DNA from: a virus
Reading direction: 5' to 3' (one strand)
DNA length: 41,785 nt
Virus record (IMG/VR): IMGVR_UViG_3300046714_000179
Coordinates: 1-41,785 of that record
The position numbers and the translations under genes are program-made. The notes below the pieces were generated by a model that was not told the origin of the DNA, searched no databases, and saw nothing but the letters and a program-made list of their open reading frames with translations. Shown in pieces: positions 6,408-41,398 of the stretch (positions are counted from its first letter, which is position 1; the number at the start of each line of letters is the position of its first letter).

Positions 6408-6468
6408 CTTTTCCTCTCGATTTCCCGCAATAGTTGCGCCAAACTAACGCCTTGGACCAAGCCAATTC

Positions 6469-7833: not shown

Positions 7834-8015
7834 TCGACTGTCCCATCCTGCAACACTATCTCGTCCGATCTATAGATCCGCCAGCGCGTGCCCTTGGGCT
7901 GCCCCGCATCCAGGATGAGCTTGAGGAAATCCTCCGCCATCTTCTGCGTGGCGCAAATCGCCTGTTGCGCCCGGTCCTTGCCCGGTATCTCGACCCAAAC
8001 CCTATACCTCAGCAC
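7830..8015 (-). CDS. hypothetical small protein
   Basis: 61 residues, starting with GTG at 8015 (GGAGG six bases ahead) inside the end of the ERCC4-type nuclease gene, and ending in a GTGA overlap with the glycosylase-exonuclease gene. The pattern is strand-helix-strand: YRVWVEIPGKD, AICATQKMAEDFLKLILD, WRIYRSDEIVLQ. No named family recognised. Coupling on both sides supports real translation. Confidence 0.7.
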   Translation of the reverse strand: MLRYRVWVEIPGKDRAQQAICATQKMAEDFLKLILDAGQPKGTRWRIYRSDEIVLQDGTVE

Positions 8016-8751: not shown

Positions 8752-8963
8752 GCCTCGCGCTCCATCTCGGCCAGCATATCCCGCGCTGCCAATATCACCA
8801 TCCCGGCATTGACCCTCATCCCCGGTCCAAACCATCGCCTGTGATGCGCCACCCGCACATAGGCCCGCAACACCACCACCTTGCCGTCCCGCCTCAACCC
8901 CCGCAAATACGCCAGCTCATCTTCGGTCGTCCAAACGGCCTCTTGATAGGGCGGCGGGGGCAT
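8748..8963 (-). CDS. hypothetical small basic protein
   Basis: 71 residues from ATG at 8963, with GGAG seven bases ahead; a longer open frame upstream overlaps another gene and is rejected. Sequence features: MPPPPYQEAVWTTEDELAYL, a basic middle (LRAYVRVAHHRRWFGPGM) and an acidic C-terminal helix. No family recognised. It ends in a TTGA overlap with the nuclease gene. Confidence 0.65.
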   Translation of the reverse strand: MPPPPYQEAVWTTEDELAYLRGLRRDGKVVVLRAYVRVAHHRRWFGPGMRVNAGMVILAARDMLAEMEREA

Positions 8964-8976
8964 GGGAGTCTCCGCG

Positions 8977-9192
8977 TCACATGATCGGCGTGCCGGGGTC
9001 ATAGGCTTCAGAGGGGAGATCGCTGGGATCGGGCTCATCAAGATAGATACAGCGCTCGACAGTGATATCGCCAATCTGGCCTCCGCTCCGCAGCTCCAAT
9101 TCAGCCGCTGCTCTAGCCTCCTCCGCACTATTTGCCTCATACTCCCCGCCGATCTCTATCGTGGCCCGCAGGACGATGTCATATTTCTTCAC
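8977..9192 (-). CDS. hypothetical small acidic protein
   Basis: 71 residues from GTG at 9192 (AGGTGG eight bases ahead), overlapping the stop of a 28-residue membrane peptide. It reads MKKYDIVLRATIEIGGEYEA, then an Ala/Glu helix (EEARAAAELELRSG) and an acidic tail. The strand-helix pattern resembles small phage proteins with a DpnD-like or ASCH-type beginning, but I cannot assign it. Confidence 0.65.
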   Translation of the reverse strand: MKKYDIVLRATIEIGGEYEANSAEEARAAAELELRSGGQIGDITVERCIYLDEPDPSDLPSEAYDPGTPIM

Positions 9193-9275
9193 AGGACTAA
9201 CCACCTTTCGATTGCCAACCACAACGCCACAATGACCGCAAACACGACCAAGCAACCACGCACAATTCTCCACAT
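9189..9275 (-). CDS. 28-residue single-span membrane peptide
   Basis: A very short gene: ATG at 9275, GGAGG nine bases ahead, ending in TGA that overlaps the next gene's GTG (GTGA). The product begins MWRIVRGCLVVFAVIVALW and ends AIERWLVL: two positive residues, one hydrophobic helix, a short tail. Good ribosome binding site and exact overlaps argue that it is translated. Function unknown; an N-in membrane peptide inside a replication operon is unexpected. Confidence 0.55.
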   Translation of the reverse strand: MWRIVRGCLVVFAVIVALWLAIERWLVL

Positions 9276-9279
9276 CTCT

Positions 9280-10098
9280 CTATTCCTCCGGCCGCAACTG
9301 GGCCATCAAATTCCCATAGGTGATATTTTCGCCGCTCAAAACTCCGTTGACCCCAGCGAGGCCGACATTGTCTTGAGATTCATAGATATCGAGAGAGAAA
9401 CGGTCAACGTGGGTCTCGTCTCCTTTGATCTTCATCTTCTGATCGAAGTTGAGACGCACGAGGGTAGTGGTGCTATAGCCAACATGCGGCGGCCCATCCG
9501 GCTTAGTAAACCCGGCCCGATCCTCGCCCTTATACGCATCCTTCTCCCAGAATGTGACCAAGAGTGTCTTGTGCGATAGAGCGTCCATCAGATCGGTCCA
9601 GTCCTGCTTCGGCGGACCCCAGACTCTGCTCTTGCCCACGCCTTGCTTGCGGCCAAAATGAGAGAACGATATCCAATCCCAAATCTGCGTCCCGGTCTCG
9701 AAGATAATCGGATTGATCGCGGGGTCTTTGGCCAGCTCTCCAGCCGCATCGACCACTCGGCGAAACACGTCCGTATATATCTTTTGGACCTTGGTATTGT
9801 CGGATTCGCTCTCGCGGTCTAATTTGGCAATCTCAAGAGCTTTATCTTGGGCGATGAAGTCGTCGCGCTGGATGAAAGGCAGGTCGAGGCCAAGCTCACC
9901 GCATACCTCTCGGACGGTCTTTCGAGTCTTGCGGTCGCACACCAGCCAGCCGGGGACTTGCCCTCTCTCGGCAGCATACTCTCCGGCAGTGGCACAGAAT
10001 CTCGTCTTGCCAGTCCCCTCTGCGCCAAACACGCCGATGGCTGGAGCCTCACGGCCGGAGAAGTCTCGCACAAACCCAACCGGAGTCTTATTCGCCAC
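9280..10098 (-). CDS. P-loop ATPase, AAA_24/Sak4-like recombination protein
   Basis: 272 residues from GTG at 10098, chosen because AAGGA lies nine bases ahead; longer ATG starts lack one. Walker A is GAEGTGKTRF near residues 24-33, after an APAIGVFG strand. A probable Walker B is INPIIFETGTQIWDW, with KTLLVTFWEKD as sensor strand. This is the RecA-like single-domain ATPase common in phage recombination modules (Sak4-type annealing helpers). Between PD-(D/E)XK and ERCC4 nucleases it probably assists strand annealing or replication-fork recombination. Confidence 0.75.
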   Translation of the reverse strand: MANKTPVGFVRDFSGREAPAIGVFGAEGTGKTRFCATAGEYAAERGQVPGWLVCDRKTRKTVREVCGELGLDLPFIQRDDFIAQDKALEIAKLDRESESDNTKVQKIYTDVFRRVVDAAGELAKDPAINPIIFETGTQIWDWISFSHFGRKQGVGKSRVWGPPKQDWTDLMDALSHKTLLVTFWEKDAYKGEDRAGFTKPDGPPHVGYSTTTLVRLNFDQKMKIKGDETHVDRFSLDIYESQDNVGLAGVNGVLSGENITYGNLMAQLRPEE

Positions 10099-16301: not shown

Positions 16302-16610
16302 TTACGAGTACCCCGTTGTCAGCAGTGGGGTTTTTGGCGGTTCTGACTCAGAATTTGGATCGAACAGATCATTTGCCGCCAGTCCTGGCCTTAGCTCCAT
16401 ACTCCCGCCCAGATAAGCCTCCGTCGTCTTCACACTCGCATGGCCCAATAGAAACTGCACCTGCTCTATCGATGCCCCGGCCGCGCGAGACAGCTTGGCA
16501 CAGGTCCGCCTTAGATCGTGCGGGGCAACTAGCCCAAGATCAGCCCTCTTAGCGGCCGATTGGACGATGTTGAATGCGGACTGTGGGGTGAGAGAGAACA
16601 CTCTGCTCAT
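16302..16610 (-). CDS. int: tyrosine integrase, C-terminal catalytic half
   Basis: 102 residues that align only with the last part of a tyrosine recombinase. HDLRRT gives His 31 and Arg 34, LGHAS gives His 57, and TTEAYLG gives the nucleophile Tyr 66. The Arg I and Lys residues are absent; they are in the separate gene two positions upstream. ATG at 16610 overlaps the stop of the intervening membrane-protein gene (ATGA). The C-terminal tail carries the palindrome TTCTGASTCAGAAT at 16341-16354. Activity would require association with the N-terminal half. Confidence 0.85.
   Translation of the reverse strand: MSRVFSLTPQSAFNIVQSAAKRADLGLVAPHDLRRTCAKLSRAAGASIEQVQFLLGHASVKTTEAYLGGSMELRPGLAANDLFDPNSESEPPKTPLLTTGYS
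16341..16354. repeat. palindrome TTCTGASTCAGAAT, copy 3
   Basis: TTCTGACTCAGAAT in the C-terminal tail of the second integrase half, encoding SESE, 15 bases from the inverted CTGACAAC copy. Confidence 0.9.
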
Positions 16611-16897
16611 TTGCACCACACTCTGAACTCGTGCTGCGTCTTGTTCGGTAGTTGGTCTGATCCCAGCACCGCATTCCCATCAGGATAATAGAGCCAGCAT
16701 GTGAAACTCATCGCGCCCATATGGACTAGCTGCACCTGCTCTAGACTCGTAGGGGTCAATAGCTCGCGCGAGCCAGCGACCGCGTGATCTGCGTATGGCC
16801 CAGGCGGTAGTTCTGATGATCGTTCTGCAAGCCACACAATCGCCACCACCCCGGCAATTATTGCCCCGGTTGCGAGTCCGCGCGTTACGTTGCTCAT
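16607..16897 (-). CDS. membrane-anchored protein between the integrase halves
   Basis: 96 residues. The N-terminus MSNVTRG is followed by one hydrophobic span (ATGAIIAGVVAIVWLAE, 9-25), then about 70 residues that would face the periplasm, with Cys 67 and Cys 95 able to form a disulfide. Its ATG overlaps the stop of the N-terminal integrase gene and its stop overlaps the ATG of the C-terminal half, both as ATGA within the same heptamer ATGAGCA. I do not recognise the family. A superinfection-exclusion or envelope role is possible but unproven. Why it separates an integrase is a main question of this window. Confidence 0.7.
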   Translation of the reverse strand: MSNVTRGLATGAIIAGVVAIVWLAERSSELPPGPYADHAVAGSRELLTPTSLEQVQLVHMGAMSFTCWLYYPDGNAVLGSDQLPNKTQHEFRVWCK

Positions 16898-17523
16898 GTT
16901 CCGCATTCCATTCTCCATTCCTCCACATATCCTCTGACCCACTCAGGCATCGGAATAGTCCTCCGCCGCTCGCCCTTGCCCACCAGCTCCACAACGACCC
17001 TTCCCCCTCTCTCGACTATGTCTGTCCATTCGAGCGCACAAACCTCCGCCCGCCGCAATCCACATCCGACCATCAAGGCAACCAGCGCCGCGTTGCGTAT
17101 GCCGTTGTCCCCCTCAGCCGCCGCGCGTAATAGCGCCCTCACTTCCGCCAGGTCGAGCCAGCGCCCTGTCTTTCGCCCTCGCACTGGCTGGCCCTTGATG
17201 CGCTCAATAGCCCAGACATCCCGATCCGCGATCAGCCCCCTATCTCCTGCTTCTCGCGCGAGCAACCGTATGGCCGCTAGAGCGATGTTTCGCGTGACTG
17301 CTCCCGCGCCCTGTTGACGGAGCCATACGAGCCACCCCTGGACGCCCTCGCGCGTGAGCGGACGCCCACTCTTGAGGAATCGGGCTACCTCGCGGCCATA
17401 ATTGCGTCTACTCGATGGGCTATTAAGACTCAGGACTGCCATTCCTGCCAATTGCACGAGGCTGGGCGCGTCCAAAGGCTCTAACCGTCCCTCAGGCGAC
17501 CCTAGGACTGCGAGGGCGCTCAA
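16894..17523 (-). CDS. int: tyrosine integrase, N-terminal half (core-binding domain, Arg I, Lys)
   Basis: 209 residues. Residues 20-110 are the SAM-like core-binding domain (SRRNYGREVARFLKSG). The first part of the catalytic domain follows: GCGLRRAEVCALEW (Arg I near 157) and VELVGKGERRRTIPMP (Lys 183 in the beta-hairpin). The protein stops after WVRGYVEEWRMECGT, exactly where other integrases continue through a loop to the HxLR segment. TTG at 17523 overlaps the previous stop (TTGA) with GAGG five bases ahead. Codon pattern and coupling give no sign of decay. Confidence 0.82.
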   Translation of the reverse strand: MSALAVLGSPEGRLEPLDAPSLVQLAGMAVLSLNSPSSRRNYGREVARFLKSGRPLTREGVQGWLVWLRQQGAGAVTRNIALAAIRLLAREAGDRGLIADRDVWAIERIKGQPVRGRKTGRWLDLAEVRALLRAAAEGDNGIRNAALVALMVGCGLRRAEVCALEWTDIVERGGRVVVELVGKGERRRTIPMPEWVRGYVEEWRMECGT

Positions 17524-27226: not shown

Positions 27227-27631
27227 TCATAGCTTATAGAATCTAAAGGGACCTATTTGTACAGTTAGTTTAGATGGTTGTGCCCAGGATGGCAACTTCC
27301 CCGGCTCGCAGGATTCGTAGTTAGTTGCGCCCATCGTCGGATCGGCTATTAGAGGCGTATCGACAACGTTGCAACACTCGGTCCACGCAGCCCAGTCCGC
27401 AGCATTCTTTGGGTTGGGCATCTGGGTGGCATTGGGGTCGCCCGAGTTGAAGCTCGAAAATTGCAGCGGCTGGAGGATGACGCCAGTGAGCGTGTTGGGC
27501 CACCGCTTGTCGGCAACTCGATTGCGTATCACGGCCAATATTGCCGCCTTGGCCGCCGCCGATTGTCCTCTTGCCTCGCGCCACAAACACAGCGCGGCCA
27601 ATACATTCTCATAGCTATTTGACGTTGTCAC
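27227..27631 (-). CDS. endolysin, SleB-type cell-wall hydrolase
   Basis: 134 residues, GTG start (GTGA overlap). AALCLWREARGQSAAAKAAI near residues 11-30 has the catalytic Glu of SleB/Hydrolase_2 enzymes, followed by VIRNRVADKRWPNTLTGVIL and QFSSFNSGDPNAT. These muramidase-like (lytic transglycosylase) enzymes cleave peptidoglycan glycan strands. No signal peptide, so release probably depends on a holin encoded nearby. Expected to lyse the host at the end of infection. Confidence 0.85.
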   Translation of the reverse strand: MTTSNSYENVLAALCLWREARGQSAAAKAAILAVIRNRVADKRWPNTLTGVILQPLQFSSFNSGDPNATQMPNPKNAADWAAWTECCNVVDTPLIADPTMGATNYESCEPGKLPSWAQPSKLTVQIGPFRFYKL

Positions 27632-28017
27632 TGTTTCGGCACCGGATGGATGCTGTCTTTGAACGCGATCATCTTGCGCACAGCCTCCGCCTGCGAGTTG
27701 ATCGCCGCGACCTGGGCATCGACCGCCTGCCCGAGTAAGGATTCGTCATATGAGATGTCCTTTCCATCGAGCGCCAGGATGGCTCGCGTCAGTTCCAGAT
27801 CCGCCTTGACCTGATTGATGACTGACTCCCGCTTTACTCCGCCGCCGTCTTTGATATCTTGATGCAGCTCCTCCGCCTTGAACGCCGCATCGGTCGTCTT
27901 ATTGATAAGCCCCGCGACTGCCGCGCCAGCCGCTGGTCCGCCGACCAGGGTGGCGGCTACCGGTGCCACATTGAGCGACACTTGGCCGATCTTTTTGAGT
28001 ACAGAGAGGAAGCTCAT
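27628..28017 (-). CDS. hypothetical protein of the lysis region
   Basis: 129 residues. N-terminus MSFLSVLKKIGQVSLNVAPV followed by a Gly/Ala/Val stretch (ATLVGGPAAGAAVAGLI) that could associate with membrane, then acidic/basic helices. Overlaps the neighbours by four bases on both sides. No family recognised. Confidence 0.65.
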   Translation of the reverse strand: MSFLSVLKKIGQVSLNVAPVAATLVGGPAAGAAVAGLINKTTDAAFKAEELHQDIKDGGGVKRESVINQVKADLELTRAILALDGKDISYDESLLGQAVDAQVAAINSQAEAVRKMIAFKDSIHPVPKQ

Positions 28018-28316
28018 GCGTGGACGCTTTCATACCACGCCGCGAACTCCTCCGTTGGATTATCTGGCATGGGCCGCGTCAGCAGCTGCCCGTAGAACAC
28101 GGCGTACTCTATTGTCGCTGCCGTGATCTGCATATAGGTATCCCTGCTCGCAGAATCAGGCCAGTTGATCCCGTATGCCTTGGCCTCTTCGAGCAGGTTG
28201 TCCATGAACTGTTTCGGCGCAATGGGCACTGCGTAGCCCCATTGATACAGCGCGGTCGCCTGCGTCAGTGCCTGATCGATCAGATTCTTAAACGGATTTG
28301 GCGTTGTCCCTGCCAT
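28014..28316 (-). CDS. hypothetical protein of the lysis/fibre region
   Basis: 100 residues from ATG at 28316, GGAGG five bases ahead. Helical with several aromatics: ATALYQWGYAVPIAPKQF, YMQITAATIEYAVFYG. Such proteins are found near phage lysis genes, but no family is recognised. A copy of the palindrome TTCTGASTCAGAAT (28331-28344) lies just upstream, between this gene and the 1064-residue fibre gene. Confidence 0.65.
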   Translation of the reverse strand: MAGTTPNPFKNLIDQALTQATALYQWGYAVPIAPKQFMDNLLEEAKAYGINWPDSASRDTYMQITAATIEYAVFYGQLLTRPMPDNPTEEFAAWYESVHA

Positions 28317-28330
28317 CTTTCCCTCCATCC

Positions 28331-28349: not shown

Positions 28350-31300
28350 TTACCGCCCCACTACCCCACTCCGCCCGCCCTGAATCCCGCGCATCCCCTC
28401 GTTTGAATTGCTAACCGTAATGGTATACGTTCCAGTGGTGATTCCGCTATCGGTCATTCCGGTCTTGCAGCCAATCGCCCTGAGTGTTGTCGTGACTGTC
28501 ACACTCACTGGCGAACTATAGAGGGTACTTGCGCACGTCGGACTCGACCCATCTGCCGTATAGTGGATGGCCGCGCCAGACGTAGAAGTGGTCATCGTCA
28601 CCGACTGCGGCGATCCAAAACTCCCCGCAGCTGGACTGAAGTCCACATTAGAGACAGTCCCGCCTGCAATCGCCCCATTGAGAATATATGACGATTCAAC
28701 CGCCACTCCAGATTCCGTGGCAACTTGTGTCCCGCCGCTATCCAGATAGGAGACTAGGAAATAGGCCGTGTGCATCGGCAGGACGGGGAGAGTGATGGTG
28801 CATGCGACCACACACGCCAGCGGAGAATAGGAGTCTGTCGTCGCGTAGGAGAAGGGGGTTGCATCCGTCACTGTCCCCAACACCGCGACACACGCTTCTC
28901 TTCTTGTCGTGCAATAGTATTGCCCCTGCGTCCCCTCCTCTGTGTAGCCAAAATAAACCTTGGCCGCTGTCACGCCCAACCCAATTGGCGCTGTGAGCGC
29001 GAGCGGCGCGCGGACAAATGTCGTCCTGTTCACTCCATCGCTTGCCGTAATGGGCGGTATTTTGAATAGGCAAAAACCTGCGTAACCGGAGTCGGCAGTG
29101 CAGCCCTCCATGAACCACGATCCGTCGTGGAGCATTTTGACATTCGATGTGGAGCTTCCCCTGGGCGGGGCCAGCGACTTGGTTAGCATCCTAACCGATG
29201 TGCCGGTCGTGTTGTCGATCCATTGCAGCTGCGGACTGCCAAATCCCATCGTTGGCATATTTCCGATGCAAATATCGAGCGGTCCTGGGTCGCCACAATA
29301 GGGCGTCGTCAGGGTGGGGACGTTGAAATAGATATCGCCAGGCACCGCTCCGGCAAAGCATTCATTCGCCGCGTTGGCCACACAGTATTTATAGTTTCCA
29401 CTTGAATCGCTGGGAAGCGTCACGCCTGGGCCGCTGATGTCGAGCAGGCTGTGCGTGCCGTTGATGGCATAGTGGGTCAATTGCTTCAGAAAATACCCCG
29501 TCACGTTATCCCCGTTATAGTGATACTGCCACAGCGTCCCGGTCTTGAACGTCACCGCCGTTGGATTTGGCTGGGTGACGCTATTCCCGCCCACAAACGG
29601 AAGGACATCAATCCCCCATGGCGAATTGTCAGTTGGCCCAGCTGGATGTTTATGGAACTGTTCCCCTCCCGCCAGGGCTAACCCTCCGGCAAATGTATAA
29701 GACTCTGCCACGCTGCCCGTGTAATTGTTCATGCCCCAGGTGGCCGTGTTGGTTGGATCGCCATTGCGAAAGGCGTATGTATCTGCGCGCACATTACCCC
29801 TGAGCAGCGGGTGTGTGCCGAAGTTGGGACCATAGTTGGCGGAGCCATCTGGAGAGCTGAGAAATTTCCACCACATGTATGGCAGAAACTCTGGATTGGT
29901 CTCCGTGCCTGCATTGCATCTGGTGCGTATGACATCCCCATTGGCGTGTGTCTGCGAGGTCCCATTGACTCCACGCTTTACTGTCCAATGAGTCGCGTCT
30001 GTTTTGACCGTGATCTCCATGTATTCAGTGGTATTTCCGTTGCTGAAAGATATGAAATCACCGACCGCGACGTGCATGATATAGTGCGGCACCGGGACGG
30101 ACACTGGATCGCCCGTGACATAGGCTGGCGGCACCGTCCCCCATCCGGCATCATATACACTCGTCACCTGGATAGCTGTCGTCGTCCCCGGAGACTGCGC
30201 CGTCATGTTGGTCAGTAGCGTGACCTCCCACGGACCATCCCCCGCAGTATTGGGCCAATTGGATGCGTTGCCTTTCGGTGTTTGCATCGCGTGACTGAGC
30301 AGATTGATATTGCCCGTATATTCGTATGTGTGATCTGTACACCATCTCGACGCCGGATTCTCCCACATCTTGAACATGGCGACGACAGCCCCAGTTCCGC
30401 CACTCCCGAGCGGCAGCTTATTGCCTAGATTGTAGGCTCCAAACCAGGCAAATGTGTCCTGCGGCCCCACGCGGCAAGAGACCATTAGATAGCCATTTTG
30501 ATAGCCATCCCCAGAGCAGCTCCATGCCAATTCTGGAGCATAGGCTTGCAGCGCGGCATAGAGAGTGTTTGGATAAGGCGTCAATATAGAGACAGTGAAT
30601 GACGCTGGTGGCGGTGCTCCAGCCCCGACGTTCCCAATAGTTACGGGGGCATCGTTGCCGGTCAGTGTGAGCTTGGCTAGAGATAGGCCGCCCGTTGTGC
30701 CGTCTATGCCGGGGCAGTAGTAGACGTTTGGATCTGTCTCGTCCCACCGCGCCGATACTCCGCCTTGGCAATCGGTCACCCCGCTCTGCCACCCGTACCC
30801 CTGGCCGAAAAAATATAATGTACCCTCGAAGACTGTCGTACCATCCGGCTTGATTCCATAAAGCGATGGCGCGAAGTTGTTGGGGCTTTGTCCAGGAATC
30901 GCACAGTGGTAGTAGCCATTGGCACTCAGCACGTTGTTACAGAAGACATCGAATCCAGCCGAGGTATTGCCCAGTACATAGCCTCCCGATGTGACATCGT
31001 TGGCAATACTCAAGGGCTGAAACAGCAACCCGGTTCGTTGGTCGATGATCCGCTGTGATCGATCATTGTTGGCAATGGATGGATAGACGATGGTGTCCGG
31101 TGCCGAGAGTTGGAACTCGTCGGCCCACGTATTGCCGAACGGAGTGTTGGCCGTAGTGAAGGTTCCTGTTCCTGTGTCCGCCCCACTATTACACGACACG
31201 CGATAGTAGTGAGTGGTATGGGTTTGCAGACCGCGCGACCGATTGGCTGCCGTGAGCGCTGTCTCGATGAGCCGCTTCCCCACCGGGAAGACGTGGTTAC

Positions 31301-31544
31301 TCCCTGACGTAATCGCTTCCGGCCGACTGCTCAGATTAGAGTTGGAAAATAGCGCCGGGTTGACATCGTTGACCAGCGGGCTATAGGTGGCACTCTCGCT
31401 GACCTCAACCGTACATGCTGTGTCGCTGTTGCTCCAGGCCAGGGTCGCCTGCGTATTGGTCGTCCCGACGATAGAGACAGTGATCGTGGCCGCCGACGCC
31501 ACCCCAACAAACATCCCTGCCAGCAGGGCAATCCTAGAGAACAT
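28350..31544 (-). CDS. large fibre-like protein with signal peptide and CHB_HEX domain
   Basis: 1064 residues. The N-terminus MFSRIALLAGMFVGVASAA is a Sec signal peptide with an ASA cleavage site. A fibronectin-III-like part follows (TISVSIVGTT-type strands, LAWSNSDTACTVEV). The middle has many aromatic-Gly segments and Cys pairs. Near the end, SFGSPQSVTMTTSTSGAAIH, YTADGSSPT and TTLRAIGCKTGMTDSG match the chitobiase/hexosaminidase C-terminal beta-sandwich. It is probably an extracellular adhesin or tail-fibre-like receptor protein. Its ATG overlaps the end of the previous gene by eleven bases. Confidence 0.7.
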   Translation of the reverse strand: MFSRIALLAGMFVGVASAATITVSIVGTTNTQATLAWSNSDTACTVEVSESATYSPLVNDVNPALFSNSNLSSRPEAITSGSNHVFPVGKRLIETALTAANRSRGLQTHTTHYYRVSCNSGADTGTGTFTTANTPFGNTWADEFQLSAPDTIVYPSIANNDRSQRIIDQRTGLLFQPLSIANDVTSGGYVLGNTSAGFDVFCNNVLSANGYYHCAIPGQSPNNFAPSLYGIKPDGTTVFEGTLYFFGQGYGWQSGVTDCQGGVSARWDETDPNVYYCPGIDGTTGGLSLAKLTLTGNDAPVTIGNVGAGAPPPASFTVSILTPYPNTLYAALQAYAPELAWSCSGDGYQNGYLMVSCRVGPQDTFAWFGAYNLGNKLPLGSGGTGAVVAMFKMWENPASRWCTDHTYEYTGNINLLSHAMQTPKGNASNWPNTAGDGPWEVTLLTNMTAQSPGTTTAIQVTSVYDAGWGTVPPAYVTGDPVSVPVPHYIMHVAVGDFISFSNGNTTEYMEITVKTDATHWTVKRGVNGTSQTHANGDVIRTRCNAGTETNPEFLPYMWWKFLSSPDGSANYGPNFGTHPLLRGNVRADTYAFRNGDPTNTATWGMNNYTGSVAESYTFAGGLALAGGEQFHKHPAGPTDNSPWGIDVLPFVGGNSVTQPNPTAVTFKTGTLWQYHYNGDNVTGYFLKQLTHYAINGTHSLLDISGPGVTLPSDSSGNYKYCVANAANECFAGAVPGDIYFNVPTLTTPYCGDPGPLDICIGNMPTMGFGSPQLQWIDNTTGTSVRMLTKSLAPPRGSSTSNVKMLHDGSWFMEGCTADSGYAGFCLFKIPPITASDGVNRTTFVRAPLALTAPIGLGVTAAKVYFGYTEEGTQGQYYCTTRREACVAVLGTVTDATPFSYATTDSYSPLACVVACTITLPVLPMHTAYFLVSYLDSGGTQVATESGVAVESSYILNGAIAGGTVSNVDFSPAAGSFGSPQSVTMTTSTSGAAIHYTADGSSPTCASTLYSSPVSVTVTTTLRAIGCKTGMTDSGITTGTYTITVSNSNEGMRGIQGGRSGVVGR

Positions 31545-32646
31545 TCTCGGTCCCCACCGCGTAGAAGGTACTTGGACTGCTCTGATTGTTGTACTCTGTC
31601 GAGATCCAATCTGCCGTCCGCACCGAGGTTGCTATCCGAGCCTCGTCTGTATTGGCATTGATCCCCAAATAGTGACTCCCGCCGCCCCCCGTGCTGATCG
31701 TCCCGGTGTCCCAGGTCTGCGTGTCTTCCAGATTCCCATCTGTATAGAGTTTGACCACCGCGCTAGAGCTGACCCGCGTGATAACCCCATAATGCCAATT
31801 CCCATCAATGACACTCGTTGTCCCTACATTACAGAGGACGGAACCTCCCAGCGGCGTTCGCTCATAGCTAACGAACTTTCCATTGGGCGACCCTGCGCAC
31901 TGCGATGCGAAGTCCCCGATTAGCGCAGCAAACAGCGGCGTCCCATTCTGCGAATAGAGCAGTTGGAGGTCATTCACCGTGCCCTTGAACCATACCGACA
32001 GCGTAAAATCCCCCACGTTCCATATATCGACAGACTCAGGCAGCGTGAGGTTGGTCGTGATCGCCGCAGCGCCGTCGATTTTCCCAGCGACCGCAGTATT
32101 GGCCCCCACGGTCCCATTGTTTCCATTCGACGTAGAGTCGAGCGCGGTCAAACTGGTGCCATTCGGCAGATGCCACACGCCGCTGAAACCATTGCTCCAC
32201 ACCCCTGCCGACGAGCATTGGTTAGTTGATATCGTTGTATTGCCGTATCCGATATAAAAGACGGTGTCGGAGCCAGTGGCCACGGTCGGCAACTTGACCC
32301 AGGCAGCGAAAGCTCCCGTCGCCCCATCCCAAAACTCGACCTCGCAGGAGGATATTTGGGTGACGCATGTAGACGAGGTGCAGAAGATGATGTCGAATCC
32401 GCTGGCATTGTGGACCTTTCCGCCATTGGCTTCCGTCTTCAAATAGGTATAGGTGCCAGAGACTAGCACTGGAAAGTCGGTCTGGTCGGTGTTAGGGACC
32501 AGGGTGTGGTCTATGGTGATCGACCGCGAATACCCGCTCCCGCCACCTCCGCCCGATGATCCGCTGGCGATGATGACGCCAAGCATTTGCCCATGGGCTG
32601 GTGCCAGCAGCAATAGCGGGATGATGAGTCTGCGTAGGATCGTCAT
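31534..32646 (-). CDS. fibre-like protein with signal peptide, DUF2341 and LamG domains
   Basis: 370 residues from ATG at 32646; the longer open frame upstream is a shadow of the 866-residue gene. Signal peptide MTILRRLIIPLLLLAPAHG, cleaved before Gln. A Gly-rich linker, then DUF2341-like strands (DFPVLVSGTYTYLKTEANGG, FDIIFC) and a LamG/concanavalin-like sandwich (FTLSVWFKG, GNWHYGVITR, VVKLYTDGNLED). These bind glycans in relatives. Likely an extracellular or virion receptor-binding protein. Confidence 0.72.
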   Translation of the reverse strand: MTILRRLIIPLLLLAPAHGQMLGVIIASGSSGGGGGSGYSRSITIDHTLVPNTDQTDFPVLVSGTYTYLKTEANGGKVHNASGFDIIFCTSSTCVTQISSCEVEFWDGATGAFAAWVKLPTVATGSDTVFYIGYGNTTISTNQCSSAGVWSNGFSGVWHLPNGTSLTALDSTSNGNNGTVGANTAVAGKIDGAAAITTNLTLPESVDIWNVGDFTLSVWFKGTVNDLQLLYSQNGTPLFAALIGDFASQCAGSPNGKFVSYERTPLGGSVLCNVGTTSVIDGNWHYGVITRVSSSAVVKLYTDGNLEDTQTWDTGTISTGGGGSHYLGINANTDEARIATSVRTADWISTEYNNQSSPSTFYAVGTENVL

Positions 32647-32647
32647 G

Positions 32648-35248
32648 TTAGTTGGCCGTCCATGTTCCGTTGAAAGCATAGATATCGTAGTGGGTGGAGT
32701 CCTTGCCCACCAAACACATCTTGTCCCCCGCCGCGCCGCCCGAGACCAGCGTCCCAGTCCCCGCCGTACCGTAGGCAGTGAAAGCCGTATTCTCATACAT
32801 CGCGCTAGACCCGATAGCGGCGAAGGTGATGACGGTCGAGATGTTGTTGGCATTGCGGACGCAGAACTGGAGCCCCGCTGATGGCACCGGGAGAGTGATG
32901 GTGCAAGTCCCTGTACACTCGAATATCTGTCCGCCCGATAGAGAGAACGTCTTGGTGGTCCCGGTTGAGAAATCCACAGCAGGCATACTCGATGTCGGGA
33001 CTGTGCCTGCATAGGGGACGCCGCAGACATAGTTGTTCGCTGTCACCGTATCGGCCTCGCAGCTGATCTCTTGATATTGCTGTAGCGTGAGATTGGCGCT
33101 CAGGCCGTTGATCGTGTTGCCATTCCGTCCGACTGTCAGATTAGACGAGTTGAGATTCTTGATCCCCACAATATAGGGCATCGTGGGCACTGTGGCGACA
33201 AGCGTAGCCGTCAGCGATGAGCCATCGAACGTGAAGACTTTGCCGCCATCGGTAGACAGCAGAGTGTAGTTGCCGGTCTTGGGTACTACAGTGCCTCCTC
33301 CACTCCCCCCGGCCCCGCTCTGCTGGGTCCAGGTGTTGGTGGATTGGCATTCGTAGATATTCTGCCCTGCTGTTGCATCTGACTTAAAATAGAGATCGCC
33401 AACTGTACAGGTGGCTGGCAGCGAGGTCCCCGTCTTCAGTGGCCCAGTCGATGTCTTGGCCGTAAAGTCGATCACACTGGGCAGCTGTGCTGTGGTCGCC
33501 TGCCCGCTGAGATTGGAGAATGCGGGCTGGGATTTGCTTATCACTCCCGCTGCCGATATAGCGGTCAGAAAATTGTTCGACGCGCCCACATCCGGCACAA
33601 CCGCATTACTCACCGTGGCCGAGTTATTTGCCTTGCAACTCCACACATGGTTGGTCGAATCCATCCAGCAGAGAAACGTCGTCGCGGGCGGAGTCCCTGG
33701 CGCGGCACTCTCAGAGCCAGCAAACTGCGGATCATTGCTCACGCACCCAGTCCCTGTGACCGTCGTCCCATCAGCCGAAACCTCATAAAACTGTTCTGTA
33801 TATTTGCCGGCCGTGAGGGAGATAACCGACTGGCATGTATTCGATGCCGATGCCCCATGGGTCAGCGTCCTCCCCCCTGTTCCATCCTGTAGCCATACAA
33901 TGGAGAACTTGGCCCCGGCTGATAGGTTAGAGAAAGTGACCGATGTGACGTTGGTAATCATCGCAGTAGGCTCAAACCTCACGGGAGATTTGAGCGACTG
34001 ATCGGCCAAGGAGAATGTCGGGGCTGCGCCTGTACCCCCGATCCCCGTAGTTGCCGTCGCCACCGACCCATTGAATACCGAACTCGAAGTCGTTGTACTG
34101 GCCGAAACATTGCCACTCGCGTCGGTCGTTAGCGTCCCCGCCCCATAGGCCGATAATTTGATCGTCCCATCGGGATTGGTTCTCACTCTCTCGACCTGTG
34201 CTGTCCCGCCGTTCGGCGTCGTCGCTATCGTGGCATAGGTGCCATGGGCAGAGTCGGTCCAGGTCTGGGAGGCGAACAGATTGTAGCTGGCTCTGGCTGT
34301 CGAGTAGGCCGTGGCCCCGTAGCCAAATGCTTGCAGTGATGCGATGAGGTCATTGGTCACCAGTGCCGTCCTGGCCGAGTTTGTCCCGTTCGCCCGTCTG
34401 CCCTGATAAGCCGTCGCCGCGCCGAACACGTCTGCCATTTGCAGATTTGCCGTCCCGTCGATCTGCCCAGTCTGGAGCATGGTCCCCGTGGGGGGCAGTG
34501 GCAGGGAGCCTGAGTTGGCGCTGATGGTGGCCGACGTCAGGATGAACGGTGTGGTGAGCGTGGGGCTATTGGCGAAGACGAGGGGGCCAGTGCCCGTCTT
34601 GGTGAGCATGGTGGCAAAGAGATTCGCACTTGTAGGATTGGCGAGGAATGTGGCCATCGCGGCTGCGAATCCCGTGATCCCGGTCGCCAGCGGTAGACCC
34701 GTGATGTTGGTTGCCACGCCGCTGATCGGAGTTCCTAGGGCAGGGCCGACCAGGATGACGCCGCTAGGGATGGTGATCTGGCAGGAGCCGACTGTCGTGA
34801 TCGTGCATGTCCCAGATACCGCGATCTTGTTTGCTGTGCCGGAGATGATGACGCTCGACACACCCCCACCACCACCTCCACCCCCGCCCAGTGCCACCCA
34901 TGAAGTCGCATTGGATCTACACAGCGCAGCAGTAGACCCTCCACCGACAGTACAGTCTGACGCTGTTAGGCCGTCTGTGACGATGAATACCAAACCGTTG
35001 CTCGTTGCAGCAGCGGGCAAAGTGGCGACCGTCCTTTCGGGTGGTCGCATCAACGCAGCCGCGAAATTCTGCAAAAACGCCTGATACACATTTGCCCGGT
35101 TGATCCCTGCTTTATATGTATCCAGATATACAAAGTTATTGTTCAACTTGGCGGGCGCGCTGGAGATGTTGTCGCCGGGGTTGATGGTCTGGATCTGGGC
35201 TGATGAGATAGCCGCGAGGGCGAACAAACACAATAGGAGTCTCTTCAT
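32648..35248 (-). CDS. tail-fibre-like protein with signal peptide
   Basis: 866 residues. Signal peptide MKRLLLCLFALAAISSAQ. Mature start QTINPGDNISSAPAKLNNNF, a pattern of phage tail-fibre N-termini. Long Ser/Thr/Gly/Ala strands follow (GTPISGVATNITGLPLATGI, TGTGPLVFANSPTLTTPF), typical of fibre repeats, with a nine-Gly linker near residue 120. C-terminal segments YVCGVPYAGT and FSLSGGQIFECTGTCTI are beta-rich. First gene of the leftward fibre/lysis block. Whether the signal peptide is used for export is unknown. Confidence 0.72.
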   Translation of the reverse strand: MKRLLLCLFALAAISSAQIQTINPGDNISSAPAKLNNNFVYLDTYKAGINRANVYQAFLQNFAAALMRPPERTVATLPAAATSNGLVFIVTDGLTASDCTVGGGSTAALCRSNATSWVALGGGGGGGGGVSSVIISGTANKIAVSGTCTITTVGSCQITIPSGVILVGPALGTPISGVATNITGLPLATGITGFAAAMATFLANPTSANLFATMLTKTGTGPLVFANSPTLTTPFILTSATISANSGSLPLPPTGTMLQTGQIDGTANLQMADVFGAATAYQGRRANGTNSARTALVTNDLIASLQAFGYGATAYSTARASYNLFASQTWTDSAHGTYATIATTPNGGTAQVERVRTNPDGTIKLSAYGAGTLTTDASGNVSASTTTSSSVFNGSVATATTGIGGTGAAPTFSLADQSLKSPVRFEPTAMITNVTSVTFSNLSAGAKFSIVWLQDGTGGRTLTHGASASNTCQSVISLTAGKYTEQFYEVSADGTTVTGTGCVSNDPQFAGSESAAPGTPPATTFLCWMDSTNHVWSCKANNSATVSNAVVPDVGASNNFLTAISAAGVISKSQPAFSNLSGQATTAQLPSVIDFTAKTSTGPLKTGTSLPATCTVGDLYFKSDATAGQNIYECQSTNTWTQQSGAGGSGGGTVVPKTGNYTLLSTDGGKVFTFDGSSLTATLVATVPTMPYIVGIKNLNSSNLTVGRNGNTINGLSANLTLQQYQEISCEADTVTANNYVCGVPYAGTVPTSSMPAVDFSTGTTKTFSLSGGQIFECTGTCTITLPVPSAGLQFCVRNANNISTVITFAAIGSSAMYENTAFTAYGTAGTGTLVSGGAAGDKMCLVGKDSTHYDIYAFNGTWTAN

Positions 35249-35283: not shown

Positions 35284-36006
35284 GTGAAGAAAAAACCCAA
35301 GCTCCTGATGGATGAGGGGAGGGGGAGTGTGAGGGGATTGGTCCCCACTTCGTCCTTTGGCATCAAGGACACCACGTACAACGAGTACATGGCAGGGTTT
35401 GATCCCAGGCAGGAAGGGGCCAAAGGCGCGGCTCTCAGAGTCGCCCTCGCACAAGCCACCGATATACGCTTCAGAGAATATCTTGAGCGGACGATGGACC
35501 CCCGTTGCAAGCACATGTCCCTCGCCGCGCTGGCCAAAGAACGCGACATCCCACTCCATGAGATGGCCGAGTTTTGGCAAAAGGCCCAGCATCAGCGTGC
35601 CCTCGCCATAGCCCAGAACGGCATCGTGGAAGTGATGGATGACATCGTCTACGATGCTCGATCTAAAGATGAACCGTGTGGCCGGTGTGACGGCTTCGGC
35701 GTAGTTTATGTCGAGGAGGGCATGGAGAAGTTTGTCGATGGCGTTGAGAAGGTCAATCCCCGCGATCCGGCCTCCCGATCTATCCGCGCCTGTCCCATGT
35801 GCAAGGGCAACGGCAAGGTCAAAAAGAGTGGCGACACCGATGCCCGCAAAATGCTGCTCGAAACGACCGGCCATACGGGCAAGCGTTCTGGCGGCGCGGT
35901 CCAGATCGTGCAGCACTTTGGCGGCGCGGGCATGGAGAGCGCCGTCGATAAACTGTCCAAAGTCTCATTCGACGTAGACTTTGAAGAAATCCCTGCCGGG
36001 GAGTAG
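35284..36006 (+). CDS. probable terminase small subunit with zinc-binding segment
   Basis: 240 residues from GTG. The helical N-terminal half has a MSLAALAKERDIPLHEMAEF helix-turn-helix-like part (near 78-97). Then CGRCDGFGVV and CPMCKGNGKV, a DnaJ-type CxxCxGxG pair forming a zinc site. Then DARKMLLETTGHTGKR, like the C-terminal segment of phage small terminases. Its place directly ahead of the packaging genes supports this role: recognising phage DNA for the large subunit. The zinc segment is unusual for small terminases. Confidence 0.5.
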   Translation: MKKKPKLLMDEGRGSVRGLVPTSSFGIKDTTYNEYMAGFDPRQEGAKGAALRVALAQATDIRFREYLERTMDPRCKHMSLAALAKERDIPLHEMAEFWQKAQHQRALAIAQNGIVEVMDDIVYDARSKDEPCGRCDGFGVVYVEEGMEKFVDGVEKVNPRDPASRSIRACPMCKGNGKVKKSGDTDARKMLLETTGHTGKRSGGAVQIVQHFGGAGMESAVDKLSKVSFDVDFEEIPAGE

Positions 36007-36372: not shown

Positions 36373-36600
36373 GTGCTGCGGACTCTCTTAGCCATCTTTC
36401 GCCCTCTCACTACCATCGCCCGCGAACTCCACATCTTGCGCGAACTCTATGAGGCCGATTTAGCCACGCGGCAAATCTATCGATTGACCGAAAAGCCAGC
36501 CAAGGATGACACCTCAGTCTCTTATGCTGGCATGAGGGATGAGCGGCCCCAGTTTAAGAAGTGGTTTGATGCTGCCGAGGAAGACGATGTACAGCAGTAG
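36373..36600 (+). CDS. hypothetical small protein
   Basis: 75 residues from GTG. Helical N-terminus (LRTLLAIFRPLTTIARELHI) that might touch membrane, then polar residues and an acidic end. The terminase ATPase gene starts inside its last codons. No family recognised. Confidence 0.55.
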   Translation: MLRTLLAIFRPLTTIARELHILRELYEADLATRQIYRLTEKPAKDDTSVSYAGMRDERPQFKKWFDAAEEDDVQQ

Positions 36601-37867
36601 CATCATCGACCGCCGCCTTCATGCTGCCAAGAAAGCTGGGATGGCATTCCGCCGCCTGCCTCGCACGACCTCCATCGAGATCGCGGCCAAACTAGAGCGC
36701 TTGCGCTTCGATGCCCAGAACCGCCTCTTGCCCGATGGCCAGCTCTCTCGTCCGATCAACAAAGCGGAGCAAGAGTTCATAGAGAGTGAGAGGCTGATCT
36801 GCCGCTGCGACTTTGAATACTATTTCACGCGCTATCACAAAGTAGAACTCGACCCAGGTGTCTCGGATCAAGACGGTATCGTTGAGACGGTGAATGGCAT
36901 CGATGCAAAAATAGCTGCCCCCATCCTCGCAGAATCCCAACTCCGCTATATCAAGCTGTTCGGCCGCCGTGAGGAAGAATGCCAGGAGGAGCGGCGCAAG
37001 TACAAATTCACCGAGGGCATCCTCGCCTATGTGCATAAGTGTCGGCAAGTCATGGCGACCGCCACAGTCAGGGGGATGTCGCTACATCGTATGGTCTTCT
37101 GGCCGGGGACGCGCGCCTTCGCCGCATCGCTCGATGACGACCGCATAGGGGAGTTGTTCAAGCGTGACCACCTCTCATTAGACCGGCTGCCCTTTTGGAT
37201 GAAGCCCCGGATCTATCCAGACGTGAAGGATAAGGAGCTTGGTTTTGAAGACCCGATATCCAGTCGCATCTCTTACCAGGCGGAGAATGCACAGCAGGGC
37301 ATTGGTACCGGATCTCAGGTCGATGTCTCGCATCTCACCGAGGTCGCTCTCTGGAAATACCCTGGCCGCATCCGCTACTCGTTCATTCCTGCTATGCCCA
37401 AGGCATCGACCACGCTCCACATCCAGGAGTCAACAGCAGACGGCAAGGGGAATTATTGGCACGAAGTGACTGAAGCCGCGCGTCACAAGCGCCGGGGCTT
37501 CGAGTCTTGGATCTATGCTTTCATTCCCTGGTACTTGAATAAGCGCAAATATAGGTCGAATCCTCCAGACGACTGGCGCCCGGAAGACCACACATTGCGC
37601 CATGCGGAGCTGGTCGCACGCACATCGCCCGAGTTTACGGACGGTATAGCGATCATCCTAGGGAGGGAGCAGTTGTTCTGGTGGGAGAGTACGCGCGCGA
37701 TGCACGCCAGAAATGGCGAACTCGCCACATTCCTCACTAACTTCCCCGCGACCCCGGAGCAGTCTTTTCAGTCACCCAACATGGGTGCTCTGCCGGTCGA
37801 ACTATTGGAAGAGATGGAGACCGAGATCGCTCTCGGTCATCCGTACGATGTGGAGGTCGCAGCTTAG
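36587..37867 (+). CDS. terL: large terminase, ATPase part
   Basis: 426 residues from ATG at 36587 (GAGGAA ahead). It shows the ATPase half of a large terminase: a HKCRQVMATATVRGMSLHRM segment in place of a classical Walker A (near 145-165), and SHLTEVALWKYPG as Walker B with catalytic Glu (near 245-258). Coupling segments STTLHIQESTADGKGNYWHE and LTNFPATPEQSFQSP follow, the latter typical just before the nuclease domain. The protein stops there; the nuclease is in the next gene. It powers DNA packaging into the prohead. Confidence 0.82.
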   Translation: MYSSSIIDRRLHAAKKAGMAFRRLPRTTSIEIAAKLERLRFDAQNRLLPDGQLSRPINKAEQEFIESERLICRCDFEYYFTRYHKVELDPGVSDQDGIVETVNGIDAKIAAPILAESQLRYIKLFGRREEECQEERRKYKFTEGILAYVHKCRQVMATATVRGMSLHRMVFWPGTRAFAASLDDDRIGELFKRDHLSLDRLPFWMKPRIYPDVKDKELGFEDPISSRISYQAENAQQGIGTGSQVDVSHLTEVALWKYPGRIRYSFIPAMPKASTTLHIQESTADGKGNYWHEVTEAARHKRRGFESWIYAFIPWYLNKRKYRSNPPDDWRPEDHTLRHAELVARTSPEFTDGIAIILGREQLFWWESTRAMHARNGELATFLTNFPATPEQSFQSPNMGALPVELLEEMETEIALGHPYDVEVAA

Positions 37868-38766
37868 TGCAAGAGGCATTCCACGTCGCTGGCTCCAATA
37901 TCATCTCATCTTCTGAGTCAGAATCTGACCTCCAGGATGATCCGCGCGGCGTTGTCTGGATGTATGCGGAGCCGAAGCCACACGCCAAATACGTCATGGG
38001 CTGCGACCCGACTGTTGGCGTCACCGGCTGGCAGCGCCATCTCCGTGTCGATGGCGATCACAAGACAGACAACTGCGCCATAGAGATTTTCGAGATCGAC
38101 GGCGAGAAGGTCAAACTAGTCGATGAACAGGGGAAGGCGATCATCGACCCCGTCACCAAGATCCCAAAATTCTACTATAGAGATGTTCAAGTGGCCGAGT
38201 ATGCAGCGCCCATAGATGCCGTCGAAGCAGCCCGCGTCTGCAACATCCTGGGCCGCGTCTATGCAGGCGAGGAGCAGGATCAGTGTCTCCTGATCTTCGA
38301 GTCTTATCCCGGCCCTGGGATGCTCACTCTCCAAGAGCTGCTCCGCCTGGGCTATGCCAATCTGTGGCACTGGGAATATTTTGCCGACTCTATTGCTGAA
38401 GAGACCAACCGGATTGGCTGGCGCTCGCATCACGAATCGCAGAAGGTTCTCTGGTATAGGGCGAGACGGCACCTGATGGAACATCGTGCCAAGATCCAGT
38501 CCAAATGGCTGCTCGAAGAATATTCAAATGCAGTCATCGATGTAGAAAAGATGCGCGCGCGCGCTGCCTATGGTTCCCACGACGACCGCATCCAAGCCGC
38601 TTCGATGGTCTTTTGGGCCGGTCATGGGTGGGCCTATGATGTCGAACGGACATCTGAAGAAGTGACGGCGAAGCCAGAGGTGGACTGGCAACAACAGGCT
38701 CCAGTCCTGGGCGAATACCGCTCCTACAAAGATGCCTGGTCCGACGTAGTTGATAGTTGGTATTGA
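37867..38766 (+). CDS. terL: large terminase, nuclease part
   Basis: 299 residues from GTG at 37867, sharing one base with the previous stop (TAGTG) and with GGAGG ten bases ahead. RNase H-like nuclease: HAKYVMGCDPTVGV (first Asp), HKTDNCAIEIFEID, CLLIFESYPGPG (Glu) and GSHDDRIQAASMVFW (last Asp). The first 45 residues include SSSESESD, where a palindrome copy TTCTGASTCAGAAT (37911-37924) lies. It likely cuts concatemers in a complex with the ATPase. In most phages both parts are one protein. Confidence 0.82.
   Translation: MQEAFHVAGSNIISSSESESDLQDDPRGVVWMYAEPKPHAKYVMGCDPTVGVTGWQRHLRVDGDHKTDNCAIEIFEIDGEKVKLVDEQGKAIIDPVTKIPKFYYRDVQVAEYAAPIDAVEAARVCNILGRVYAGEEQDQCLLIFESYPGPGMLTLQELLRLGYANLWHWEYFADSIAEETNRIGWRSHHESQKVLWYRARRHLMEHRAKIQSKWLLEEYSNAVIDVEKMRARAAYGSHDDRIQAASMVFWAGHGWAYDVERTSEEVTAKPEVDWQQQAPVLGEYRSYKDAWSDVVDSWY
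37911..37924. repeat. palindrome TTCTGASTCAGAAT, copy 6
   Basis: TTCTGAGTCAGAAT near the start of the terminase nuclease gene, encoding SESE. Confidence 0.9.
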
Positions 38767-39427: not shown

Positions 39428-41398
39428 GTGCCCAGTGACTTCGATGATCTTCCTCCGCTAAAGGACGACGCGGCCAAGCCAGGGACTGTCGAATATGACA
39501 CCATAGCCTGGTGTGAATCGCGTCTCTTGCAGGGGCAGCGTTTTGTTGAATCTTCCGTAGGCTATGACAAGATCGACGACGCGCTAAATGCCATATTTAG
39601 CAATGAGCGAGAGACAGGCGCGTCCTATGTCCCCACTCCAAAGCCCTTGTCCAAGACCAAGACCAATCGCACGGCCAAGACTGCCGAAGACACTGTCGCC
39701 GGTCTGACCGACACGCGGGTCTTTTGGAACTATGCGACACGCAATCCTAAATACGAACAACAGGCCAAGATCAGCAACGATCAGGCCGAGGACTGGTACA
39801 CCTCTCGTCTGATCGATCTCCGCATCGCGGATGTCGTCCGCTATTACACCTTCGGTGGCACCGGCTACGCCCACCTCTTCTACTCGCGCCGCCTCAACGA
39901 CATGATGGTCGAGGCCGAGGACCCGCGCTCGATCTTCCCTATCGAGCCGATCTCCTATCACACGCTGCAAGACGCCCTGGGAGTCATCATCCGCAAGGCG
40001 CGCACGCCGAACTGGGTCAAGGCCGAATATAAGAAAGATGTAAAGGCGGACATCGGCGAGCCTGGGATCTTCGGCTGGTTCACACGTATCATCGGCGGCT
40101 CGTCGAAGAACAAACACTCCGGCCCATTGTCCCGGCGCGGCGGGTCGGCGGATGAAGCTATACCAGCGACTCCAACTGTCTTCGTCAACACGATGTATTT
40201 GAATGACACTCGGGTCAACAAGACATCGAAGACCGTCCTGATGGGCGAGTGGGAGGTCGGCGCGCAGGGGGAGGATGTACCCAAGACCAGTTGGTCCTAC
40301 AAAGTTGCCCCTAAGCAACCCCTCTATCCGTTCAAACGAATGATCGTTTGGGGCGGCGGCGCTCTCCTCTATGACGGCCCATCACCATACTGGCACGCAA
40401 AATATCCTCTCATCAAACTGACCCTCAACCCGTGGCCCAAGTCGTGGCTGGGTAAGGCTCCTCTGTGGGATGTCATGCCGCTCGACGCATCCCTCAACTC
40501 GCTCCTCCGCATCATCGACGACCACGCGGCCCAACTCGCGCAACCCAGCGCGACCGCTGACCGCAACGTCAGCAAGGCCGAGTTTGACAAGTTCAACTCG
40601 CGCGCTCCGGGGGCCAAGATCCGCACCAACATGGCCTCTGGCAAAGGCATCCAGATCATCCCCGTCCCCCCTCTCGACCAGTCTCTTTGGGAACATGTCA
40701 ACTGGATCAAGGAAGAGATCAAGGAAGTCTCGGGGACGGCCGATGTTTCTCAGATGGCCTCCCTCGCCCAGATACCCTCGGACGACACTATCGACACCAT
40801 CATGAAAGCCATGACCCCCGGCATGCGCTTGCGCTCGCGCATCCTAGAAGGCTTCATGAAAGAGTTTGCCGAGATGTATTTGTATTCCATTGCCCAGTTC
40901 GACACGCTCCCCAAGCGCATCGCCAAATTCGGCCCCGACGCCGTCACCAAGGAGGACATGGACTACGACCCCAACACCTTCATCCCGGACAATATCCCTG
41001 ACGGTGAACCTGGCGATGTGGCTTCGCTTGCGAACGCAGTTGGCATGGAGAATCCGCGTCCGCGATACGACCGCGCCAAGGCGATGTTTGAGTCGTTTAC
41101 CTTCAACTTCAAACCAGGATCGTTGCTCAATAGCGCGGCCACCCAAGACCGGATGGAGGACTTCCTCCTCTCGAAGATGGGCTATCTGGATTTCTTTACC
41201 TTGATGGAGAACCTGGGCAAGATGAATATCGTGCCGCCATCATTGAAGATCCCGGCGACTATTGTCGAGAGATTGCAGCTGCAAGCCGCTCTAGGAATCG
41301 GCATGGTGGCCAATGCCCAGGGAAGAAAAGCGACCAATGAAGCGCCGCCCAGCGTAGAGTCTCAACCTTCCGGCGATCCGACCATTCAAACGTCATGA
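39428..41398 (+). CDS. portal protein
   Basis: 656 residues from GTG. It has the size and layout of podovirus-like portals: an N-terminal region with FVESSVGYDKIDDALNAIFS, RYYTFGGTGYAHLFYSRR, then YPLIKLTLNPWPKSWLGKAP, long helices (NSLLRIIDDHAAQLAQPSAT, WEHVNWIKEEIKEVSGTADV), and the TIMKAMTPGMRLRSRILEGF segment. It follows the terminase genes. It forms the dodecameric entry ring of the head. The C-terminus is a Pro/Ser/Glu tail. Confidence 0.82.
   Translation: MPSDFDDLPPLKDDAAKPGTVEYDTIAWCESRLLQGQRFVESSVGYDKIDDALNAIFSNERETGASYVPTPKPLSKTKTNRTAKTAEDTVAGLTDTRVFWNYATRNPKYEQQAKISNDQAEDWYTSRLIDLRIADVVRYYTFGGTGYAHLFYSRRLNDMMVEAEDPRSIFPIEPISYHTLQDALGVIIRKARTPNWVKAEYKKDVKADIGEPGIFGWFTRIIGGSSKNKHSGPLSRRGGSADEAIPATPTVFVNTMYLNDTRVNKTSKTVLMGEWEVGAQGEDVPKTSWSYKVAPKQPLYPFKRMIVWGGGALLYDGPSPYWHAKYPLIKLTLNPWPKSWLGKAPLWDVMPLDASLNSLLRIIDDHAAQLAQPSATADRNVSKAEFDKFNSRAPGAKIRTNMASGKGIQIIPVPPLDQSLWEHVNWIKEEIKEVSGTADVSQMASLAQIPSDDTIDTIMKAMTPGMRLRSRILEGFMKEFAEMYLYSIAQFDTLPKRIAKFGPDAVTKEDMDYDPNTFIPDNIPDGEPGDVASLANAVGMENPRPRYDRAKAMFESFTFNFKPGSLLNSAATQDRMEDFLLSKMGYLDFFTLMENLGKMNIVPPSLKIPATIVERLQLQAALGIGMVANAQGRKATNEAPPSVESQPSGDPTIQTS

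Follow-up and report, generated by a model that had tools for sequence, protein, structure and literature searches.

Tail fibres of phages are taught as products of the cytoplasm. The tailspikes of phage P22 attach to heads in vitro, and T5 Llp is a phage exclusion protein that crosses the membrane during infection. The mosaic adhesive trimer (MAT) fibres of Bdellovibrio bacteriovorus possess a conserved beta-rich domain of about 130 residues after the signal peptide (SP) and a trimeric beta-prism tip; they are displayed on the cell surface, and one of them was shown to bind glycans (PMC10769870). Phages of the Acidobacteriota genus Tunturiibacter have been described in a paper that mentions neither SPs nor virion proteomics (PMC11924767).

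The DNA that we analyzed, called the window here, is a linear IMG/VR virus contig of 41,785 bases (record IMGVR_UViG_3300046714_000179). It encodes a podovirus-type portal, a terminase, DNA polymerase A, a VapE-like helicase and a split integrase. The window is a partial genome: three sister contigs with portals of 66-75% identity span 61-63 kb, and about 20 kb of the typical sister genome is absent from the window contig. The terminase large subunit (36539-38766, plus strand) is divided into two adjoining ORFs in the window, as it is in the sisters, and is a single 737-aa ORF in L067. The tyrosine integrase (16302-17523, minus strand) is split such that positions 2-86 and 91-166 of PF00589 lie in different frames. 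The break, which is overlapped by a hydrophobic ORF of 111 aa (16607-16942), may be a frameshift, an insertion or an assembly error.

The three genes under study, P3, P2 and P1, are listed in Table 1 together with their neighbors. They are tightly packed head to tail on the minus strand: the ATG of P2 lies 1 base past the stop of P3, and the ATG of P1 overlaps the stop of P2 by 11 nt. From P1 the run continues, nearly gap-free, through two small ORFs to an endolysin gene, and the small ORFs and the endolysin gene overlap. The 240-aa ORF on the other side of the cassette also shows a weak match to the DnaJ zinc finger.

Table 1. Coordinates of the SP-bearing cassette and related features in the window
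Feature	Coordinates	Strand	Remarks
P3, 866 aa, SP-bearing fibre-like protein, mosaic of tail-fibre segments, 17 Cys	32648..35248	-	
P3 predicted signal peptide MKRLLLCLFALAAISSA^QIQ	35198..35248	-	score 6.12; without lipobox or Tat motif
P2, 370 aa, SP-bearing DUF2341/LamG-like protein, 6 Cys	31534..32646	-	PF10102 E 1.2e-4, just below cutoff
P2 predicted signal peptide MTILRRLIIPLLLLAPAHG^QML	32590..32646	-	score 6.04
P1, 1064 aa, SP-bearing, C-terminal CHB_HEX_C_1/Fn3_assoc domain, 22 Cys	28350..31544	-	PF13290 E 8.7e-19
P1 predicted signal peptide MFSRIALLAGMFVGVASA^ATI	31491..31544	-	score 5.50
104-aa ORF, directly downstream of P1, same gene run	28014..28328	-	21-nt gap to P1
129-aa ORF, overlapping both neighbors	27628..28017	-	
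Endolysin (Hydrolase_2), end of the P3-P2-P1 gene run	27227..27631	-	PF07486 E 8.8e-14; PHROG endolysin
240-aa ORF, marker adjoining the SP cassette in 4/4 sisters	35284..36006	+	weak Q-like antiterminator match
Portal protein, query for finding relatives	39428..41398	+	PF23899, PHROG 156

The N-termini of P1-P3 each have a positive n-region, a hydrophobic h-region and small residues at -3 and -1. We scored them with a heuristic that was calibrated on 22 known SPs of E. coli, 20 of which score at least 5.17, and the scores of all three proteins fell within the E. coli range. When residues 2-35 were shuffled, the observed score was matched in only 0.1% of the trials for P3, 0.16% for P2 and 1.9% for P1. 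In the control phages T7, P22, N4, ep3, PfAn1 and ctYwJ313, none of the 85 genes of at least 300 codons reached a score of 5, whereas 16 of 116 large genes of the window, its sisters, Tunturi_1 and Tunturi_4 did so (Fisher p = 1e-4), and 15 of these 16 sit in tail or fibre cassettes. Judged from these sequences, the predicted SPs of P1-P3 are convincing as SPs of the Sec/SPase I type, and Sec export of the proteins is a well-supported prediction. For the events after export, that is, cleavage, oxidation with formation of disulphides and attachment to the virion, we infer that they probably occur.

We looked for a lipobox and for a twin-arginine (Tat) motif in the N-termini of P1-P3 and found neither, and Tat export and lipoproteins were therefore rejected. 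A superinfection-exclusion lipoprotein of the T5 Llp type was also rejected because of the missing lipobox and because proteins of 370-1064 aa are not small.

Four sister contigs, of which the portals are 66-78% identical to that of the window, carry three or four SP-bearing cassette genes at the equivalent locus, adjoining the 240-aa ORF and upstream of the terminase-portal region. In the closest sister, G001 (portal 78%), a minus-strand triplet is again present; its products are 728, 524 and 1044 aa long, and it faces the 240-aa ORF. BLASTP of P1-P3 against the sister cassette genes gave no similarity. SPs are nevertheless found in all four sister cassettes: at these loci the SP is retained and the gene sequences change.

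By portal, the closest phages in GenBank are Tunturi_1 and Tunturi_2, podoviruses of Tunturiibacter. In Tunturi_1, gp12, gp13, gp14 (tail spike), gp16 and gp17 bear SPs, and the depositors annotated the SP genes of Tunturi_1/2 as tail spike, tail fibre and virion structural proteins. The gp17 SPs of the two phages differ by three substitutions, all of which preserve the hydrophobic character. In Tunturi_4, an unrelated siphovirus, gp113 and gp114 bear SPs, as does gp111 if its start is moved upstream. Gp111, annotated as 'tail fiber' (L013:40077-43172), has a TTG codon with a good ribosome-binding site 119 codons upstream, and its annotated start probably misses the SP. Tunturi_4 gp114 and Tunturi_1 gp17 show 49% identity over 650 aa; thus, genes of this kind move between phages that are unrelated but infect the same host genus. 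No SP was found on the tail fibres of Tunturi_3 and of the examined part of Tunturi_5, which means that export is not required for an Acidobacteriota host.

With regard to the relationships of P1-P3 themselves, P3 is the only one that has sequence segments common to known phage fibres. Its residues 154-251 match fibre-like proteins of the podoviruses PfAn1 and ctYwJ313, and its residues 786-864 match the C-terminus of an SP/head-binding fibre in L091 (45%). P2 matches SP-bearing genes in L058-L060 that adjoin a head-binding fibre; it also has relatives lacking an SP, in L124 (38% identical) and in L125, where the start is lost at the contig end. The C-terminus of P1 has its relatives among the SP-bearing genes of L088 and in Tunturi_1 gp17. 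A search of viral contigs gave no close relatives of P3 and P1, and Pfam and PHROGs gave no name to P3 or to the SP-bearing head-binding domain described below. An AlphaFold2 (AF2) model of P2 had a pLDDT of 50 and was set aside.

An earlier note on this DNA had described the three as consecutive fibre-like proteins with Sec SPs, and had proposed SP prediction and a comparison of N-termini among relatives as checks. The genes are real and packed, the n-, h- and c-regions are discernible, our heuristic accepts P1, P2 and P3 and rejects none of them, and SPs recur in the sisters, in Tunturi_1/2/4 and in viral contigs. The term 'fibre-like' suits P3 by its segments; it fits less well to P2, which is DUF2341/LamG-like, and to P1, which ends in CHB_HEX_C_1. 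The sequence 'NPGDNISSAPAKLNNNF', which the note gave as an example of repeats, proved to be a single, unrepeated motif at the mature N-terminus of P3.

The central finding of this study is a virion anchor located behind an export signal. In Tunturi_1 gp12 and in the sisters L002 and L005, a domain of about 100 aa comes immediately after the SP; it matches the first 80 or so residues of the tailspikes of Escherichia, Serratia and Enterobacter phages with about 40-48% identity over about 70 aa. These enterobacterial tailspikes start with the head-binding domain at residue 1, without an SP. A profile of the head-binding domain finds the cyanophage tail-machine tailspikes of Pam1 (7eeq) and Pan3 (9vyg) in the PDB, and when an AF2 model of the domain (pLDDT 89.6) was compared, 7eeq and 9vyg came first (probability 1.00, TM about 0.5, E about 0.005-0.01). 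Relatives of the domain occur in 80 viral contigs and in one Terriglobia MAG. After removal of duplicates, the SP stands directly before the head-binding domain in 54 of 76 copies. Among 45 contigs, genes adjoining the anchor gene bear an SP in 20 of 68 cases, and genes further away in 17 of 242. An HMM of the domain family gave no match to P1-P3, and P1-P3 were not filed as head-binding tailspikes.

Prophage copies were sought in 396 Acidobacteriota genomes, which gave one strong head-binding match (the known Terriglobia MAG) and one borderline match; the same sample gave two clear portal matches. In the MAG (L118:4845-6491), the SP/head-binding gene is alone, without recognized phage structural genes nearby. 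L111 carries consecutive SP-like fibre genes (4893-9997), one of them with a head-binding domain and without a Cys pair; this is possibly an independent case.

The copies of the domain also differ in their cysteines. A Cys pair, with one residue just past the SP and the other at the first core strand, is present in 48 of the 54 copies with an SP and in 1 of the 22 without, although the second Cys was a requirement in one of the two patterns with which the copies had been gathered. The single exception, L050, has a hydrophobic N-terminus, and its SP was probably missed by the heuristic. The copies of L085 and L048, which are nested among the others and lack the SP, also lack the Cys pair. An independent-pairs test of SP and Cys pair on the tree was not significant, with only these two contrasts and a poorly resolved tree of 59 columns, and both characters are confounded with host lineage. 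P2 has 6 Cys and its SP-bearing relatives have 4-5, while the SP-less L124 and L125 have 2 and 0. In the 45 contigs, mature SP proteins have a median of 1.74% Cys, compared with 0.70% in same-strand neighbors (p = 6.5e-11 when kinship is ignored). The enterobacterial tailspikes without an SP also have 1.5-2% Cys. We therefore rejected the Cys percentage alone as proof of oxidation, and the placement of the pair outweighs the Cys content as evidence.

How do such proteins reach the virion? On balance we lean slightly toward the reading that P1-P3 are receptor-binding or host-surface-binding fibres of a temperate Acidobacteriota podovirus, which are exported late through Sec, fold in the periplasm and dock on virions at lysis. 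That is, P1-P3 would be made late, beside the lysis genes; late lytic expression is favored by the nearly gap-free run into the endolysin. They would then be exported as substrates of SPase I and fold in the periplasm, probably forming disulphides there, apart from the virions, whose maturation takes place in the cytoplasm. Upon lysis by the endolysin, the virions would encounter the periplasmic pool of fibres, and the fibres would dock onto the tail. Docking after lysis is plausible from the in-vitro attachment of P22 tailspikes. The earlier note had offered three possibilities, and joining to virions outside the cytoplasm is the best supported of them, given the SP and tailspike head-binding domain in many relatives. 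Secretion during lysogeny is weakened by the nearly gap-free run with the endolysin gene, although a split integrase is present and makes a role in lysogens conceivable. Display on the host surface is still a live rival.

The main rival to export followed by docking is that P1-P3 are secreted and are not virion parts, acting as surface adhesins, decoys or matrix-degrading proteins that might prevent superinfection, cover debris or remove the exopolysaccharide surrounding the cell as it lyses. This explanation, which we consider unlikely but of real weight, would account for the CHB_HEX_C_1 domain of P1 and the DUF2341/LamG-like nature of P2, both of which are typical of secreted glycan-binding proteins, for the beta-propeller-like SP proteins in L002 and L007, and for the absence of the head-binding domain from P1-P3 themselves. 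The phage also has an integrase, and there is a precedent in XepA of the B. subtilis prophage PBSX, which is exported and not in particles (PMC6834076). However, numerous SP-bearing proteins encoded in the same cassettes have a virion head-binding domain at their start, which would be needless in a purely secreted protein, and the depositors' annotations of the Tunturi_1/2 genes name virion parts.

The remaining explanations concern the N-termini. Short hydrophobic N-terminal segments can anchor proteins, and scores of our heuristic do not prove cleavage; the segments might thus be uncleaved membrane anchors or hydrophobic docking segments, with assembly at the inner face of the membrane or retention of the segment on the virion. 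We regard this as improbable in view of the small residues at -3 and -1 and the sharp border to a conserved mature start. The +1 residue is Gln in 23 of 49 cases, and Gln is also the commonest +1 residue in a small sample of Acidobacteriota genes (4 of 18 host SPs); moreover, the SP-less copies of L085 and L048 begin at about the mature border. It is quite improbable, in our judgment, that the SPs are relics of captured host genes, with the proteins mostly cytoplasmic or the SP having no phage role. The domains of P1 and P2 do look host-derived, but a relic would decay, and the SPs occur in successive cassettes of strongly diverged phages, also before phage-type head-binding domains, and the gp17 substitutions noted above all keep hydrophobicity. 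As the SP calls are heuristic and the start codons come from mechanical ORF calls, wrong starts or chance hydrophobic N-termini might also be suspected. Such an artefact is hardly probable: no in-frame alternative start lies upstream of P1 or P3, P2 starts directly past the stop of P3, and the pattern, absent from the control genes, is found in dozens of phages.

We are about evenly divided on the wider proposal of a tailed-phage group with a two-compartment particle, of which heads and tails are cytoplasmic and the fibres are exported through Sec, oxidized in the periplasm and joined only at lysis. Assembly of this kind would be a previously undescribed route of morphogenesis for tailed phages; in the open-access literature we found no description of SPs on tailed-phage virion fibres. 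Confirmation by virion proteomics, if obtained, would make it a categorically new morphogenesis. If the fibres are exported, virion assembly is completed outside the cytoplasm, co-infecting phages could share or swap fibres at lysis, and disulphide-stabilized fibres become possible. Export would also affect the annotation of phage receptor-binding proteins, where genes such as that of Tunturi_4 gp111 may be mis-started, and the expression of these proteins for study in the Acidobacteriota, a phylum that is abundant in soil. Since phage-host pairs are available in culture, the question is directly testable.

Finally, we compare the locus with the known systems. Tunturi_1/2/4 (PMC11924767) are like the window in that they are Acidobacteriota phages and have SP-bearing tail proteins in runs, but the portals of Tunturi_1/2 share only about 23% identity with that of the window. 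The head-binding tailspikes of Pam1 (7eeq), Pan3 (9vyg), Escherichia phages ep3 and Alux-21 and Serratia phage MTx share a homologous domain with the SP-bearing relatives. The enterobacterial ones differ from these relatives in lacking both the SP and a Cys pair at corresponding positions, and all of them differ from P1-P3, which have no head-binding domain. XepA of PBSX and Sec-type endolysins such as that of fOg44 (PMC6834076) are encoded by phages and pass through the membrane in the course of infection, as is predicted for P1-P3. Unlike P1-P3, XepA, the fOg44-type endolysins and T5 Llp are lysis or exclusion proteins, without a multi-gene fibre cassette. The MAT fibres of B. bacteriovorus (PMC10769870) are like the P1-P3 group in being phage-fibre-like proteins behind an SP, a likeness by description only; they are encoded by bacterial genes for predation and are not virion parts. 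In the open-access literature, the nearest known systems are the Bdellovibrio MAT fibres and, on the phage side, exported lysis proteins like XepA.
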